From contig PDRZ01000021.1 of assembly GCA_002747035.1 (NCBI GenBank), positions 1 to 64,000 of the forward strand: a DNA stretch of 64,000 bases, read 5' to 3'. Source of the DNA: Rhodobacterales bacterium. Its GTDB lineage: Bacteria > Pseudomonadota > Alphaproteobacteria > Rhodobacterales > Rhodobacteraceae. The stretch's first letter is position 1. Each line of letters starts with the position of its first letter. The position numbers were made by a program, and so were the translations under genes. The notes under the pieces are model-generated. The model saw only the letters and a list, made by a program, of their open reading frames with translations, was not told the origin of the DNA and did no database searches. Of this stretch, positions 6,059-63,093 are shown piece by piece.

Positions 6059-6472
6059 ATGCTTCAACCAAAGCGTACCAAATTCCGCAAAATGCACAAA
6101 GGCCGGATCAAAGGTCTTGCAAAAGGCGGTTCCGATCTGAACTTCGGCTCCTATGGTCTTAAGGCAACCACGCCCGAGCGTGTAACCGCCCGCCAGATCG
6201 AAGCAGCCCGTCGTGCCATGACGCGTCATATGAAACGTCAGGGCCGTGTATGGATCCGTATCTTCCCGGATACCCCCGTGACAGCCAAGCCCATCGAAGT
6301 GCGTATGGGTAAAGGTAAGGGGTCCGTAGACCGCTGGGTTTGCAAGGTAAAGCCGGGCCGCGTGATGTTTGAAATCGACGGCGTGAATGACGATGTCGCC
6401 CGCGAGGCGCTGCGTCTTGCTGCGATGAAACTGCCGGTGAAAACCCGCGTGATCGTGCGCGAAGACTGGTAA
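6059..6472 (+). CDS. rplP: 50S ribosomal protein L16
   Basis: The 137-residue protein begins [21 protein letters not shown]. It has the L16 motif [22 protein letters not shown] and the GKGKG loop. L16 organises the A-site tRNA elbow. The start has a strong AAGGAGG site at 6046-6052. It ends the second S10 sub-block, whereas in the classical order rpmC would follow directly. Confidence 0.98.
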
Positions 6473-6540: not shown

Positions 6541-6604
6541 GGGCGTGGATGAGATGATGATTGACAGGGGCACACGATTTCAACAGTGAGTGCCAAGGAT
6601 TTTA

Positions 6605-6715
6605 AAGCGTTTCCAGTTGTTGTTGGATCACAGCAAGAGCTGGAAACGTCCACATCCCTACTGTGTCGCGCAGCGTTTCCGCATCACGCAGAGTCAACGT
6701 GATGCGGAAACGCTT
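6605..6715. mobile_element. MITE-like palindromic element, 111 bp (A'-B composite)
   Basis: The terminal inverted repeats are AAGCGTTTCC and GGAAACGCTT, and both ends are flanked by TA (6603-6604 and 6716-6717). The left half is a palindrome with a GGATCACAGCAA core. A spacer starting CACATCCCTACTGTGT follows. The right half is the B palindrome with TTTCCGCATCACG...CGTGATGCGGAAA arms. There is no coding capacity. Relatives lie at seven other places in this window. Confidence 0.8.
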
Positions 6716-6744
6716 TAGATAAAATTCTTGGTCCAGCCGCGCCG

Positions 6745-13873: not shown

Positions 13874-13897
13874 CGCGCCTGAGAAATACAGTTGCTA

Positions 13898-14122
13898 AAG
13901 CGTTCGACCTTTAAAGCGTTTCGACTTATTGTTGAAACACAACAATATGGCGAAACGCGCGGAACCTGTTGATGTTGTGGGCGTTTCTAGATGAAGTTTT
14001 GTGTCAACTTAATCTCGAAACGCTTTATCCTGAGACAGGGCAACGGGCGAACGCCGCGCGACATTTATGTGTTGCGCGCGTGCTGCCAAAATCCCGTGAG
14101 TTAGGTTTTTGGCAGCACGCTT
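13898..14122. mobile_element. C-type MITE-like element interrupted by another element
   Basis: It carries the same sequence as the uninterrupted copy at 43724-43833, starting AAGCGTTCGACCTT and ending TTTTTGGCAGCACGCTT. It is split after its first 14 bases by the E element (13914-14025). Outer flanks are TA on both sides (13896-13897 and 14123-14124). On the minus strand the right-hand TA plus the first element base form the hpaH stop codon. Confidence 0.75.
13914..14025. mobile_element. E-type MITE-like element nested inside the C element
   Basis: The 112-bp element is bounded by AAGCGTTTCGA and TCGAAACGCTT, an 11-bp perfect terminal inverted repeat. TA occurs on each side (13912-13913 and 14026-14027), while the uninterrupted C copy has a single TA at this point. 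That is what a TA target duplication would produce. Confidence 0.75.
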
Positions 14123-14928
14123 TAAGAAGCGGCGAAGTGGATATCCACAAATCCGAATGATCCGAAATCCGCGTGGATGTCGGTGCCGGGGGGGCATTCG
14201 ACGGGGCGTATAAAGCTGCCTGACAGGATCACCTGACCCGGTGAGATGCTTTGCCCATACTGGGCCATGCGGCGGGCCAGCCACACCACGCTTTCCACCG
14301 GATCGTTCAGAACCCCCGCACCAAGACCGGTTTCTTCGATCTCGTCATTGCGAAAAACCATGGCCCCAACCCAGCGCAGATCACAGGCATCGACCGGATG
14401 GCGCTGTTGCCCCAGGACGATCCCGGCATTCGCGGCGTTGTCGCTGATCGTGTCGAACACTGTGCGGGTCTGGCCGGTTTCGGGGTCGACCCGTTGGATA
14501 CGGGTGTCGAGAATTTCGATAGAAGGGGAAACATAGTCCGTCGCGGCGATAACGTCGTCCCGTGTGACCTCCGCCCCCCCCAGCGGGGATTTCATGACAA
14601 AGGCAATTTCGGCTTCGATCCGCGGCTGTATGAACCGGTCTGCGGGCACCGTCGCGCCGGTTGCGAACGCCATATCGTCAAACAGGATCCCGCTGTCGGG
14701 AATGTCGATGTTCAGCGCATTTTGCATCGCTTTCGAAGTCAGCCCGATTTTCCAGCCGATCACCCTGCGCCCCTGGGCCAGCTTGGCGCGATAGATTGCG
14801 TTTTGAACCTCATAGGCGTCGTTCATCCCCATTTCGGGATGGCGCCGGGTCAAAAGCCCGATTTGTGTGTGGGTTCTTTCGGCGGTCAACAGGTCGGCGG
14901 CGGCCTGGGCGTGATCCTCTGGGGTCAT
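14122..14928 (-). CDS. hpaH: 2-oxo-hept-4-ene-1,7-dioate hydratase
   Basis: The 268-residue protein belongs to the HpaH/MhpD hydratase family: RRVIGWKIGLTSKAMQ near residue 55, IEAEIAFVMK near 106, and the C-terminal GQVILSGSFIRPVECPPGTDIHADFGSFG. It adds water to 2-oxo-hept-4-ene-1,7-dioate in homoprotocatechuate breakdown, using Mg2+ or Mn2+. It starts within the hpaG stop (ATGA) and is last in the hpa operon. Its TAA stop lies exactly at the edge of a repeat element, so the element landed on the stop codon. Confidence 0.9.
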   Translation of the reverse strand: MTPEDHAQAAADLLTAERTHTQIGLLTRRHPEMGMNDAYEVQNAIYRAKLAQGRRVIGWKIGLTSKAMQNALNIDIPDSGILFDDMAFATGATVPADRFIQPRIEAEIAFVMKSPLGGAEVTRDDVIAATDYVSPSIEILDTRIQRVDPETGQTRTVFDTISDNAANAGIVLGQQRHPVDACDLRWVGAMVFRNDEIEETGLGAGVLNDPVESVVWLARRMAQYGQSISPGQVILSGSFIRPVECPPGTDIHADFGSFGFVDIHFAAS

Positions 14929-15779: not shown

Positions 15780-15816
15780 CGTTCAATCCTCCTTGGCGGC
15801 ATTGATGCCACCTTTA

Positions 15817-15860
15817 AAGCGGTTCCACATCACGCTGAGTCAACGTAATGCGGAAACGCC
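15817..15860. repeat. B-type palindromic element, degenerate copy
   Basis: AAGCGGTTCCACATCACGCTGAG and its right arm TAATGCGGAAACGCC match the B copies at 39574 and 62062. A TA lies at the left edge (15815-15816), while the right end has drifted. It lies in the 199-bp gap between hpaD and hpaG. Confidence 0.65.
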
Positions 15861-15982
15861 TGAAACAGGTATTTCGGTTCCGTGACACCATTCAGCCAGC
15901 GGTGCCCCTCTTTGCCCCCCCGGATGTCCTGATCCCGGCGAACGGGGCCATGCGGGGTCGGCGCGCGCGGGAGAGTGTTCAT
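15830..15982 (-). CDS. Uncertain 50-residue ORF coupled to hpaD
   Basis: An ATG overlaps the hpaD stop as ATGA and opens a 50-codon frame beginning NTLPRAPTPHGPVRRDQDIRGG. Its last 11 codons (FPHYVDSA and the TGA) lie inside the B repeat element. I do not recognise the protein. It could be a short real gene in the operon, the stub of a longer gene cut by the repeat, or chance. The overlap of start and stop is the only positive sign. Confidence 0.25.
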   Translation of the reverse strand: MNTLPRAPTPHGPVRRDQDIRGGKEGHRWLNGVTEPKYLFQAFPHYVDSA

Positions 15983-24576: not shown

Positions 24577-24594
24577 GCGGTGTCTTCGCCTCGT

Positions 24595-24643
24595 GAAGCG
24601 TTTCCAGCTATTGTTGTGATCCAACAATAGCTGGAAACGCTTC
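24595..24643. mobile_element. A-type palindromic element, intact 49-bp hairpin
   Basis: Arms of 22 bp (24595-24616 and 24622-24643) are perfectly complementary around a TGATC loop. They carry the AAGCGTTTCC terminus shared by the family. Flanking dinucleotides are TG and CA rather than TA. It follows the rplQ terminator and lies 27 bp from the truncated end of a DCC-family gene. Confidence 0.8.
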
Positions 24644-24670
24644 AATCTTGTATGCGGCGCTCCGGTGCCA

Positions 24671-39537: not shown

Positions 39538-39572
39538 CAAAAAACACCCCCGCAGCTTCCTGCGAGGGTGTT
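39538..39572 (-). terminator. Terminator of the sat/cysC transcript
   Basis: AACACCCTCGCAG pairs with CTGCGGGGGTGTT around a GAAG loop. On the minus strand the stem is followed by a run of T. It lies about 100 bp past the sat/cysC stop, on the far side of a palindromic element. Confidence 0.75.
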
Positions 39573-39573
39573 A

Positions 39574-39618
39574 AAGCGTTTCCGCATCACGCTGAGTCAA
39601 CGTAATGCGGAAATGCTT
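39574..39618. mobile_element. B-type palindromic element, 45 bp
   Basis: AAGCGTTTCCGCATCACG pairs with its inverse CGTAATGCGGAAATGCTT around CTGAGTCAA. TA lies on the left (39572-39573) and TG on the right. It matches the right half of the 111-bp element at 6605. Confidence 0.75.
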
Positions 39619-39670
39619 TGGAATGCAGGAGCCGCGTCCTGCGCGGCTCCAAACGATGTCCCGCTGCGGC

Positions 39671-43710: not shown

Positions 43711-43723
43711 AGCCGGGCATCTA

Positions 43724-43833
43724 AAGCGTTCGACCTTTAACCTGAGACAGGGAAAGGGCGAACGCAGCGCGACATTTATGTGTTGCGCGCGTCCTGCCAA
43801 AATTCCGTGATTCAGGTTTTTGGCAGCACGCTT
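43724..43833. mobile_element. C-type MITE-like element, uninterrupted 110-bp copy
   Basis: It starts AAGCGTTCGACCTTTAACC and ends GGCAGCACGCTT. The flanks are TA (43722-43723) and TG. It contains two internal hairpins: a GCGCGACA/TGTTGCGCGC one and a CTGCCAAAA/TTTTGGCAG one. It is the reference for the broken copy at 13898-14122. The last 22 bp encode the C-terminus and stop of truA on the minus strand. Confidence 0.78.
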
Positions 43834-44603
43834 TGGTCCGCGAACGGATCGTCCGGATACCCCACTCCGGCCAGATACAGCCCCCCCGGCGGGCAAACCG
43901 GGCCACAGGCGGCGCGATTCCGCGCGGCCAGGGCCGTGCCCACATCTTCCGGTGCCCAGCTTCCGGCCCCCACGCGTTCCAGCGTGCCAACGATGGACCG
44001 CACCTGATTGTGCAGGAAAGACCGCGCGCGGATATGGAACCGGAATTCCCGGCCGCCCTGCGCCTCGACCTCCTTGATGGTGATCTCGTCCAGCGTTTTC
44101 ACCGGGCTTTGGGCCTGGCACATGGTGGATCGAAAGGTGGTGAAGTCATGATTGCCGATCAAAAAGGCGGCCCCGTCGCGCATCGCGTCGATGGAAAGGG
44201 GGGTCCTGACCTGCCACACCAGCCCCGCGTCATGGGTGGCTGGCGCGCGCCGGGCCAGAAGCCGGAACAGGTAACGCCGCTCGATCGCAGAAAACCGGGC
44301 GTGCCAGTCCGGGTCCACCCCGACCGCCGCCAATATGGCCACGGGCAGGGGTTTGAGGTGGTAATTCAACGCTTCAGACAGCCGGAAAGGGTCCCAGTCC
44401 CGGGTCAGGTCGCAATGGCACACCTGCGCCAGCCCATGCACCCCGGCATCCGTGCGCCCGGCGGCGGCAATCGTGTGCGCCCCCGGTTCCAGCCGCGCCA
44501 ACGCCATTTCAATCGCCCCCTGCACCGACGGCTGGTCGGCCTGACGCTGCCACCCGGCAAAGGGCGCGCCGTGATATTCAACCTTGAGAGCATAACGTGG
44601 CAT
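43812..44603 (-). CDS. truA: tRNA pseudouridine synthase A
   Basis: The 263-residue protein begins [20 protein letters not shown] and has the catalytic Asp in [15 protein letters not shown], plus [21 protein letters not shown]. It modifies U38-U40 in the anticodon stem-loop. The start at 44603 is the conserved family start. The last residues, SVLPKT and the stop, are encoded by the inverted end of a palindromic element, so the native C-terminus has been replaced or extended. Confidence 0.93.
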
Positions 44604-56968: not shown

Positions 56969-57054
56969 GTATCACAACTGCTGACTGGACCTCGGCCAAT
57001 GGCATGGGGTAAGACGCGTCCTACATGTCTCATTTCGGGTCTGGGGGACTCTTG

Positions 57055-58176
57055 GTGCAACGCGTTTTCTTGGGTTTGAGCTTTGTGGGTCTGTTGTCGG
57101 CCTGTGGCGATCCGTTGGCCCAGATTCCGCGTCTGGACGAGGTTGAGCTAAGCGAAGAGTCCACGGTGGTCGAAGCCGTCGCCGCCCCCGCCGAGCTGAA
57201 CGAAGATCAGGGCTTTTTAAGCCGTATTCTGAGAAAACGCGAAGTTGCGCCAAAGCTGGCCGAAACGCCGCCCGCACCGCCCTCCACAGAGGGGCAGGCC
57301 GAGGGGGAAGACGTGGCATCCGCCGCCACCGCACCGGCCAACAACACGGCCACTCTCCCCGCCATCCAACCGGAAACGGTGCCAGCCCCCGCGCCGGACC
57401 CCGCCAAGGCCAACCCGGGCAAACGCCGCTGGCCCTTTGGCAAGCGCGCAGCGGCCAAGCGGGACAAGGGGGCCACGCCCGCCAACTCCGGCACACCATC
57501 GGACACGGCCTCCAACGTCCCCCCCGCCAGCGACCTTGCCGTTGACCCCAACAAGCTGCCAAAGGAACAGGTCACCCTGGCCTCTCTTCCCAAAACGGAC
57601 GACGGCACCACCCTGCGGGATACGGAACGTCAGGCGCGCAAGGGGCTGTTTTCCAACCGCAAGGCCGCGCGGCTGACCGGCCCGGACGCGGCGTCGGTTG
57701 ACCCCGGCACCGTTCTGCCCTTTGGCCAGATCGCCCGCGCCTGTGGCACGCCCAAACGCGACCTTGGCAAAGAGGTGGCGCGCTATCCCGACAAAGGCGG
57801 GCGCTATCGTCTTCATGACAGCCAGCCGGGCCACACGGGGCAACACACCTTTTATGTGACCGGGTTCAAGGATGGCTGCCCCCGGCAGGTCACCGGCGCG
57901 TTGGTGATGTTTGGCAGGGCCAGCATTCATGAAACCCTGCGTTATGGCCTGCCCAGCGCGGCAAAACCCTATAGCAAAACCGACCTAGCCTATGAAAAGA
58001 TCAAACGCCGTGTGTGCAAAAGCGGGAACAGGAAGCCCTGTGGCAAGTCGATTTCCAAGCTTGAAAAAGGCACCGTGTTCCTGACCGTCTATGACCGTTT
58101 CACGGGGGCGCAGGGCTGGAAAAACATCCTGCTCAGCGATGGCAAGGTGATCGCGGTGGATCGGCAAGGGGGCTAA
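57055..58176 (+). CDS. Lipoprotein of unknown function
   Basis: From the GTG at 57055 the 373-residue product has a lipoprotein signal QRVFLGLSFVGLLSAC with lipobox LSAC. An ATG at 57025 would add ten residues but lacks a ribosome site, whereas GGGGGA lies before the GTG. Residues 30-210 are low-complexity Pro/Ala/Lys. A conserved-looking C-terminal domain (about 220-370) has paired cysteines in RRVCKSGNRKPCGKS. The TAA stop is completed by a repeat element. Confidence 0.6.
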   Translation: MQRVFLGLSFVGLLSACGDPLAQIPRLDEVELSEESTVVEAVAAPAELNEDQGFLSRILRKREVAPKLAETPPAPPSTEGQAEGEDVASAATAPANNTATLPAIQPETVPAPAPDPAKANPGKRRWPFGKRAAAKRDKGATPANSGTPSDTASNVPPASDLAVDPNKLPKEQVTLASLPKTDDGTTLRDTERQARKGLFSNRKAARLTGPDAASVDPGTVLPFGQIARACGTPKRDLGKEVARYPDKGGRYRLHDSQPGHTGQHTFYVTGFKDGCPRQVTGALVMFGRASIHETLRYGLPSAAKPYSKTDLAYEKIKRRVCKSGNRKPCGKSISKLEKGTVFLTVYDRFTGAQGWKNILLSDGKVIAVDRQGG

Positions 58177-58245
58177 AGCGTTTCCAGTTACTGTTGGATC
58201 ACAGCAATAGCCGGAAACGCCCACATCCCTACTGTGTTGCGCAAC
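58176..58245. mobile_element. Truncated copy of the A'-B composite element
   Basis: AAGCGTTTCCAGTTACTGTTGG and the spacer CACATCCCTACTGTGT match the first 70 bp of the 111-bp element at 6605 with few changes. The B half is missing. The left flank TA (58174-58175) is part of the upstream gene's stop codon. Confidence 0.7.
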
Positions 58246-58355
58246 GGCCCGCGGTCTTGATTTCGCGACTCCGTGCCCCGTGGGCGACCTGTTTGGGCAA
58301 ACCCTCTCTGCCGATCCAGCCCCGGTTCGGCCCCCGGTTCAACCCCGGTCCAGCC

Positions 58356-61975: not shown

Positions 61976-62061
61976 CCGGACATGTCCCGCGATCGCCAAA
62001 GCCGTGGCAGGGTATTCCCGACTGGGTCCGTTCGAAAACGCCTGCACTCCTGATTTGTTGT

Positions 62062-62113
62062 GCGGCGTTTCCACATCACGCTGTGTCAACGTCAACGTAA
62101 TGCGAAAATGCTT
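62062..62113. mobile_element. B-type palindromic element, degenerate copy
   Basis: GCGTTTCCACATCACGCTG and TAATGCGAAAATGCTT match the B element. A GTCAAC duplication sits in the loop. TA follows on the right (62114-62115) and, with the last element base, makes the TAA stop of the minus-strand regulator gene. Confidence 0.68.
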
Positions 62114-63093
62114 TAGATACGCGCTTTGCGCAAATCGCGCACCGATTGGCCGTATTTGCCCCGAAAGGCGCGGGAAAAGCTGGCTTGTGATGAAAATCCC
62201 ACCGCAAGGGCAAGCTCCTGAACCGGTTGGTTGGTTTCAAGAGCAAGCCGGTGCGCCTCGCTCAGCCGGATGTCCATATAGGTCGCTTTCGGGGATTGCC
62301 CGAGGGCCGAGGCGAACTGCAACTCCAAACGGCGCACGGACAGGCGCAGCCCCTCTGCGATCTGCGTGACCGACAGTGGTGTGTCGATATGGGTCTCCAT
62401 CCGCGCCAGCGCCCGTGCGACCACGGGAAACCGTTTTGCAAGGGATGCGTGGGACAGGCGGAATTGCGGCAGGTCGCCCGATTGGAACGGGTCGTGGATA
62501 AAGGCCGAGGCGACACTGCGCGCCAGCCCGGTCCCAAACCGATCCCGGATCAGGTGCAGCATCATGTCGATGGACGGAATCGCCCCGCCCGAGGTCAGGA
62601 ATCGCCCCGAGACCGCGAACCGGTTGGACACCGTGTTGACCCGTGGAAACCGGGTGGCAAAGTTTTCCAGATCCTCCCAATGGGTCGTGGCGGTTTGCCC
62701 GTCCAGCAACCCGGCCCGGGCCAGAATCCAGCTACCCCCATCCACCCCCGCGATCCGGTCACAATGCGGGGCCAGCCGGCGCAGGGTGGCCAACAGGCGC
62801 GGCGTGGCATGAGTTTCAAGGTTGAACCCGGCAATCAGCAGCAGAAGGTCACAGCGGTCCAGCGTGGCAATCGCCGCGCCCTGGACCTCTAACCCCGAGG
62901 TTAGCGTCACCGCGCCGCCCTCAGGGGTGTAAAAGGACCAGTTGAACACGGTTTTGCCCGACCGCCGGTTCGCGGCCCGCATGGGATCGACCGAGGCGGC
63001 AAGCGACAGGGTGTTGCTCTCGTCCAGAACCAGTACGGCCGCGTTGATCGGATTTTGTGGTTCTGCGAGGGAAGTATTTTCGTGTTTGGACAT
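62113..63093 (-). CDS. GlxA family transcriptional regulator (PfpI-like plus AraC HTH)
   Basis: The 326-residue protein has an N-terminal DJ-1/PfpI-like domain (NAAVLVLDESNTLSLAASVDPMRAANR to about 190). A C-terminal AraC-type DNA-binding domain (about 220-320) follows, with LSVTQIAEGLRLSVRRLELQF and ELALAVGFSSQASFSRAFRGKYGQS. Homologues such as CdhR and GbdR control carnitine or betaine catabolism. The start at 63093 precedes SKHENTSLAEPQN; longer readings run into the divergent gene. Its stop is made by a repeat element. Confidence 0.85.
   Translation of the reverse strand: MSKHENTSLAEPQNPINAAVLVLDESNTLSLAASVDPMRAANRRSGKTVFNWSFYTPEGGAVTLTSGLEVQGAAIATLDRCDLLLLIAGFNLETHATPRLLATLRRLAPHCDRIAGVDGGSWILARAGLLDGQTATTHWEDLENFATRFPRVNTVSNRFAVSGRFLTSGGAIPSIDMMLHLIRDRFGTGLARSVASAFIHDPFQSGDLPQFRLSHASLAKRFPVVARALARMETHIDTPLSVTQIAEGLRLSVRRLELQFASALGQSPKATYMDIRLSEAHRLALETNQPVQELALAVGFSSQASFSRAFRGKYGQSVRDLRKARI

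Follow-up and report, generated by a model that had tools for sequence, protein, structure and literature searches.

Two-hairpin repeats of CIR-type anatomy in a Rhodobacterales genome: very probably TA-inserting MITEs of an alphaproteobacterial IS630 lineage

The closest described repeats are the CcrM-associated intergenic repeats (CIR) of Caulobacter, Brucella and other alphaproteobacteria (Chen and Shapiro, 2003), as presented in the review of Delihas (PMC2229807). In the description given there they are about 110 bp long, consist of two arms and a linker, carry a GANTC motif at the loop of one arm and have TA termini, and it is the architecture of two arms and a linker that sets them apart from other bacterial repeats. 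At the time of this 2007 review, CIR were described as repeats without terminal repeats that never occur in genes, with target duplication listed as unknown and mobility as unresolved; the text also contains speculation on regulation (PMC2229807). The same review describes the RUP element of Streptococcus pneumoniae, which is 107 bp long, has TA as target and IS630-like ends, is found in IS genes, and was proposed to be a miniature inverted-repeat element (MITE) of IS630-Spn1.

The window analyzed here is a stretch of 64,000 nucleotides (G000:C3:1-64000) of a Rhodobacterales genome, the assembly of which comprises 2.52 Mb and is 77.7% complete. A first-pass annotation had listed places in the window with shared ends, and these were indeed found: TAAAGCGTT was present at 24 sites (at most one mismatch), compared to 6.75 expected and a maximum of 18 in 100 shuffled sequences. 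The three long forms of 111, 112 and 110 bp proved to be exact (6605-6715, 13914-14025 and 43724-43833). The other listed places were real, but several had to be reinterpreted, i.e., 13842 is a fragment, the elements at 58174 and 62036 are full copies with a truncation, the solo hairpin at 15817 is degenerate, and at 13898 a long form is interrupted by another one. The elements of the window are the following:

6603-6717, plus strand: full type I element, 111 bp core at 6605-6715 with TA on each side; hairpin B at 6607-6648, followed by the linker and by hairpin A at 6672-6714; GANTC (as GAGTC) at 6691-6695 in the hairpin A loop
13843-13873, minus strand: fragment of a type I hairpin B
13896-14124, plus strand: type III element with a type II insert, TA-flanked core at 13898-14122, defined by alignment to the intact copy at 43722
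13912-14027, plus strand: type II element, 112 bp core at 13914-14025 with TA on each side, nested inside the type III copy
15815-15861, plus strand: degenerate solo hairpin A
24594-24644, minus strand: solo hairpin B, core at 24596-24642, flanks TG and CA
39572-39620, plus strand: solo hairpin A, flanks TA and TG
43722-43835, plus strand: type III element, 110 bp core at 43724-43833, flanks TA and TG, GATTC in the loop of the right hairpin
58174-58246, plus strand: truncated type I copy, positions 1-73 of 115
62036-62115, plus strand: truncated type I copy, positions 42-115

The gene for ribosomal protein L16 ends at 6472, just ahead of the element at 6603, and the stretch 3763-3828 matches the L2-Alphaproteobacteria ribosomal protein leader of Rfam (67.4 bits).

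The interiors of the long forms had been regarded as unrelated, but types I, II and III were found to be built on one plan, in which two hairpins, each about 45 bp long and inverted relative to each other, are joined by a linker of about 20 bp. The elements are short, have terminal inverted repeats and do not contain a transposase gene, in agreement with the earlier view that they have no coding capacity. Folding of the type I copy at 6603 yielded -60 kcal/mol (z -9.6) and of the type III copy at 43722 -59.8 kcal/mol (z -8.2); for the type II copy the fold of lowest energy was a single long hairpin and not two arms. The arms were compared in 27 elements (54 halves) from the window and ten other sources. 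Between the inner arm and the outer arm of the same hairpin 10.6 of 13 positions paired, compared to 8.7 of 13 with the arms of other elements, and the own outer arm was the best or a tied partner in 33 of the 54 halves. Therefore, each hairpin consists of a terminal repeat and its own reverse complement. An inner arm of this kind was missing from the 12 ends of IS630 elements described below, which reached 5-8 of 13 pairings. In many MITEs, including type III, one end is of the left type (TTGAATC) and the other of the right type (CTGAGAC).

The first-pass annotation had known of no named family with such ends; CIR is a described kind with this anatomy. By anatomy the elements are CIR-type repeats, the comparison having been made with the description in the review (PMC2229807). 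Like CIR, they are about 110 bp long, have inverted-repeat arms, a linker and TA ends, and reside in an alphaproteobacterium. Types I and III of the window also carry GANTC at the loop of one arm, while it is absent from type II. In contrast to CIR as reviewed, the elements have terminal repeats, a TA duplication and a match to IS630, and one copy lies inside an IS630 gene remnant. With RUP they share a similar size, the TA target, IS630-like ends and the occurrence in IS genes, but the host group is a different one. ERIC and Correia elements, as described in the same review, are likewise small and foldable, have TA termini and lack a transposase gene; however, they form one stem-loop from their two ends instead of two arms. 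MITEPye1 of Paracoccus yeei is also a MITE of Rhodobacterales, but its ends match the IS1182 family, as stated in its description (PMC11578231), and not IS630. A literature search, the coverage of which excluded most subscription journals, retrieved neither a link between CIR and IS630 nor IS630 MITEs of Rhodobacterales.

The genome was searched for further copies. The paired-end pattern AGCGTTTCC-N5..35-GGAAACGCT matched 41 places, and the reversed-pattern control matched none. Together with the 24 sites of TAAAGCGTT versus 6.75 expected in the window, this excluded chance as the origin of the shared ends. A blastn search with 6603-6717 as query gave a lower bound of the copy number, as 40 of 132 candidates were scored, and 38 of these 40 covered at least 110 of the 115 positions. 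In the stretches examined there were 82 distinct hits. Forty of them were full type I copies, each at a different place, and the other 42 were mostly solo hairpins and for the remainder truncated copies. It had been claimed that most elements are bordered by TA, and this held for 33 of the 40 aligned full type I copies, which had TA on both sides, but not for the elements at 24596 (TG/CA) and 43724 (TA/TG). The length including both TAs was 115 bp in 33 of the 40 full copies.

The elements duplicate TA upon insertion and are polymorphic between strains. Within the window, the type II element has split the type III copy at 13898. The insertion point is a TA which occurs once in the intact copy at 43722; TA is present on both sides of the insert (13912 and 14026), and the next base differs (T versus A). 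Elsewhere in the genome a type I copy is located at a TA within a remnant of an IS630 transposase gene (G000:C6:70139-70253), and two homologous genes lack the insert; the upstream part of this alignment is weak. Two polymorphic sites were found on plasmids of eight Aliiroseovarius crassostreae strains. Site 1 was filled in five of the eight records and 113-114 bp shorter in the other three; in an alignment of two filled and three empty records the pre-insertion TA was not clean in every empty strain. Site 2, the target of which is an older element as judged by eye, was by length filled in three and unfilled in five of the eight records. The three filled records read CAAAT-TA-element-TA-ATTTTG, while three aligned unfilled records had a single TA, i.e., CAAAT-TA followed by ATTTTG, ATTTCG or AATTTG. 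On the plasmid of strain S202, which carries these elements, the start of a gene (L081:38370-40077) is annotated as SpvB/TcaC N-terminal domain-containing protein, i.e., Tc-toxin-like.

The strong folding of the arms would also fit a conserved structured RNA or a bidirectional terminator that is held in place by selection, as would the observation that, across lineages, inner arms show a closer match to the outer arm of the same hairpin than to the arms of other lineages. The first-pass annotation had named fixed places in related genomes, covarying hairpins and a lack of empty TA sites as signs of such a feature, and the opposite was observed. Empty sites with a single TA exist at the nested pair in the window and on the A. 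crassostreae plasmids. Among the 33 own copies of equal length no excess of compensatory changes was detected in either hairpin, i.e., one of 18 pairs in hairpin B versus a shuffle mean of 0.7, and one of 17 pairs in hairpin A versus a mean of 2.2; a predicted structure mainly covering hairpin B gave 3 versus 1.1 in all 40 own copies. Full elements occurred in nine of 394 genomes of the same family with a strict pattern (control 0). The surroundings of relatives of one window gene (80 stretches, 1.51 Mb) did not yield any full element in a scan that requires TA on both sides and recovers two of the window's three long forms, those at 6605 and 13914; the third, at 43724, has TG as its right flank and is missed. 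A stricter scan of the same stretches, which missed the copy at 6605, also found none. These stretches belong to the best 80 of 245 relatives of this gene, among which the top identity was 84%, in Pelagimonas and Ruegeria, and no locus was labelled as a congener. A conserved RNA at fixed places is contradicted by the empty sites, the nested insertion and the missing compensatory excess, and the wider reading, including the terminator, is highly unlikely. The element is a patchy mobile repeat, which possibly gained an extra function after insertion.

In line with the IS630-type mobilization proposed in the first-pass annotation, elements of the IS630 family that have these ends and are flanked by TA were found in related bacteria. 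Five of six plasmid-borne IS630-family loci, from Octadecabacter, Paracoccus, Roseovarius, Pseudosulfitobacter and Sulfitobacter, were TA-flanked elements of 1053-1058 bp, the ends of which were determined by matching each element's own two ends; for the sixth locus (L106) no paired ends were found. A further genome (G268) contained an internally deleted IS630 element of 637 bp with AAGCGTTTCGCG ends and TA flanks. All 12 ends of these six elements matched a MITE end at 18-23 of 25 positions, while only five of 70,703 TA sites in relatives reached 18 of 25. For example, the ends of type III of the window matched the left end of the Octadecabacter element at 23 of 25 and the right end of the Pseudosulfitobacter element at 21 of 25 positions. 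In the genome under study itself, 77.7% of which is represented in the assembly, no intact IS630 transposase but only remnants were found. One relic (L069) has a type I-like right end and lacks the transposase C-terminus; possibly, a piece of a MITE has here become joined to a truncated transposase gene, and for this reason the relic was dropped as proof of an autonomous copy.

Matches to the DDE_3 domain were present in four of the eight other element-bearing genomes, and in four of all nine no match was found. IS5-type DUF4096 matches occurred in five of eight genomes searched, this one among them, so that a different TA-duplicating enzyme, e.g., a transposase of the IS427 group of IS5, might be considered as the mobilizing activity; with IS630 ends that already match over 25 bp, this is a most improbable explanation. 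Two inverted short hairpins with a linker also resemble the REPIN form. REP and REPIN sequences are moved by a RAYT enzyme, which is of the IS200/IS605 type, and are not known to duplicate TA. The present elements do duplicate TA and have the same ends as IS630 elements, and a REPIN-like origin is highly improbable. Taken together, the nested TA duplication, the filled and empty plasmid sites and the 12 matching IS630 ends support the earlier proposal, and the elements are very probably non-autonomous transposons of an alphaproteobacterial IS630 lineage, with two hairpins and CIR-type anatomy, which insert at TA and would be moved in trans. An IS630 transposase supplied in trans would bind the ends of about 25 bp (AAGCGTTTC...TTGAnnC), move the 110-bp element and insert it at a TA, which would thereby be duplicated.

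The IS630 elements also offered a source of the GANTC in the loop. To compare their ends, 43 of 75 IS630 loci were used, for which the ends could be set by their own repeat and TA alone; the other 32, including L072, were left out (contig ends, weak repeats or no match). In 41 of the 43 elements the left end had GANTC at exactly position 21 (GAATC 32, GATTC 5, GAGTC 4), and none of the 43 right ends had it at this position; the two exceptions at the left end were L247, the ends of which look spurious, and L266, which has GAACC. A second GANTC was present at positions 48-60 in 35 of 43. With L247 dropped (n=42), the left positions 21, 22, 24 and 25 had 2.0, 2.0, 1.8 and 2.0 bits, position 23 had 1.0, and the remaining positions from 5 to 32 had at most 0.8 bits, except for position 26 with 1.3. 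The right end also kept G at position 21 (1.4 bits) and C at position 25 (1.7 bits), with 0.4 and 0.3 bits for the A and T in between. Possibly the transposase makes use of G....C at both ends, or these bases may be preserved at the right end by its coding role. The transposase stop codon lies inside or adjoining the right terminal repeat, e.g., in L104 and L107, and this repeat is thus partly coding. G and C are kept at both ends, but the full GANTC with its free N only at the left one, for which selection on the methylation site is the most likely interpretation. The sole usable control from a host without CcrM, an IS630 element of Piscirickettsia, lacked GANTC in the outermost 70 bp of both ends; the ends of Deinococcus and Azotobacter copies, sought as further controls of this kind, were not found.

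The MITEs of Rhodobacterales have retained the site less well: 28 of the 40 own type I copies had GANTC at position 21 of one end. In the mixed-lineage set of 27 elements, 11 had any GANTC and eight had it at position 21 of an end. A pattern of GANTC at position 21 combined with TA-GAGC ends matched 40 of 385 genomes, compared to four with the reversed control. Of 30 such loci that were folded, 28 formed two or three loops, in 15 the site was at or near the first apical loop, and a few (L302, L304 and L309) were not two-arm elements. When GANTC was not required, the pattern gave 126, 140 and 132 hits in the genomes G1092, G1104 and G504, compared to 11, 12 and 5 in the control; it says nothing in 11 of 19 genomes, in which the reversed control outnumbers the pattern. 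With this pattern, 32 of 35 listed elements of G1092 had GANTC at position 21 of one end by hand count, these copies being closely alike, and in G443 it was found in just 2 of 11 listed elements. From this sequence comparison, the GANTC in the MITE loop is best read as derived from the IS left end, from which it would have been inherited. An IS630 element with a fixed left-end GANTC would thus provide a simple origin for CIR repeats and explain their CcrM site.

The fixed left-end GANTC suggests, by analogy with Dam methylation, which ties IS10 to the passage of the replication fork, that methylation could time transposition. Tentatively, and as a possibility to which we give somewhat less than even weight, it can be proposed that an alphaproteobacterial IS630 clade carries a CcrM site at left-end position 21 and, as a rule, a second one just before the transposase start, that methylation couples transposition or transposase expression to the passage of the replication fork, and that this clade gave rise to CIRs as its MITEs, here and probably throughout the class, and passed the site on to them. 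The methylation part was weighted lower because the right IS end partly keeps G21 and C25 and because the rarity of GANTC in the window is not special: it occurred 78 times versus 256 expected, and palindromes of the same composition were rarer still (AGNCT 59, CTNAG 70). The RAMA domain (PF18755), sought as a sign of CcrM, was not found in this assembly of 77.7% completeness. A link between CIR and IS630 elements with a fixed left-end GANTC would make a replication-coupled control of transposons by CcrM directly testable in Caulobacter.

The solo hairpins probably originated by deletion between the repeated arms of full elements, and some may have multiplied on their own; the mutual likeness of 20 solo hairpins was 0.61 versus 0.32 by chance (p 0.017), which is a weak signal. 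Full copies also border on open reading frames. At 32 full-copy loci (64 sides), 15 open frames of at least 120 codons run into the element, and seven of these 15, at six elements, end exactly at the border TA plus A. This is accounted for by the elements starting with A, so that an insertion at the TA of a stop codon restores TAA. The same arrangement is present in the window, where TA plus A of the truncated copy at 58174 forms the stop codon of the open frame 57025-58176.
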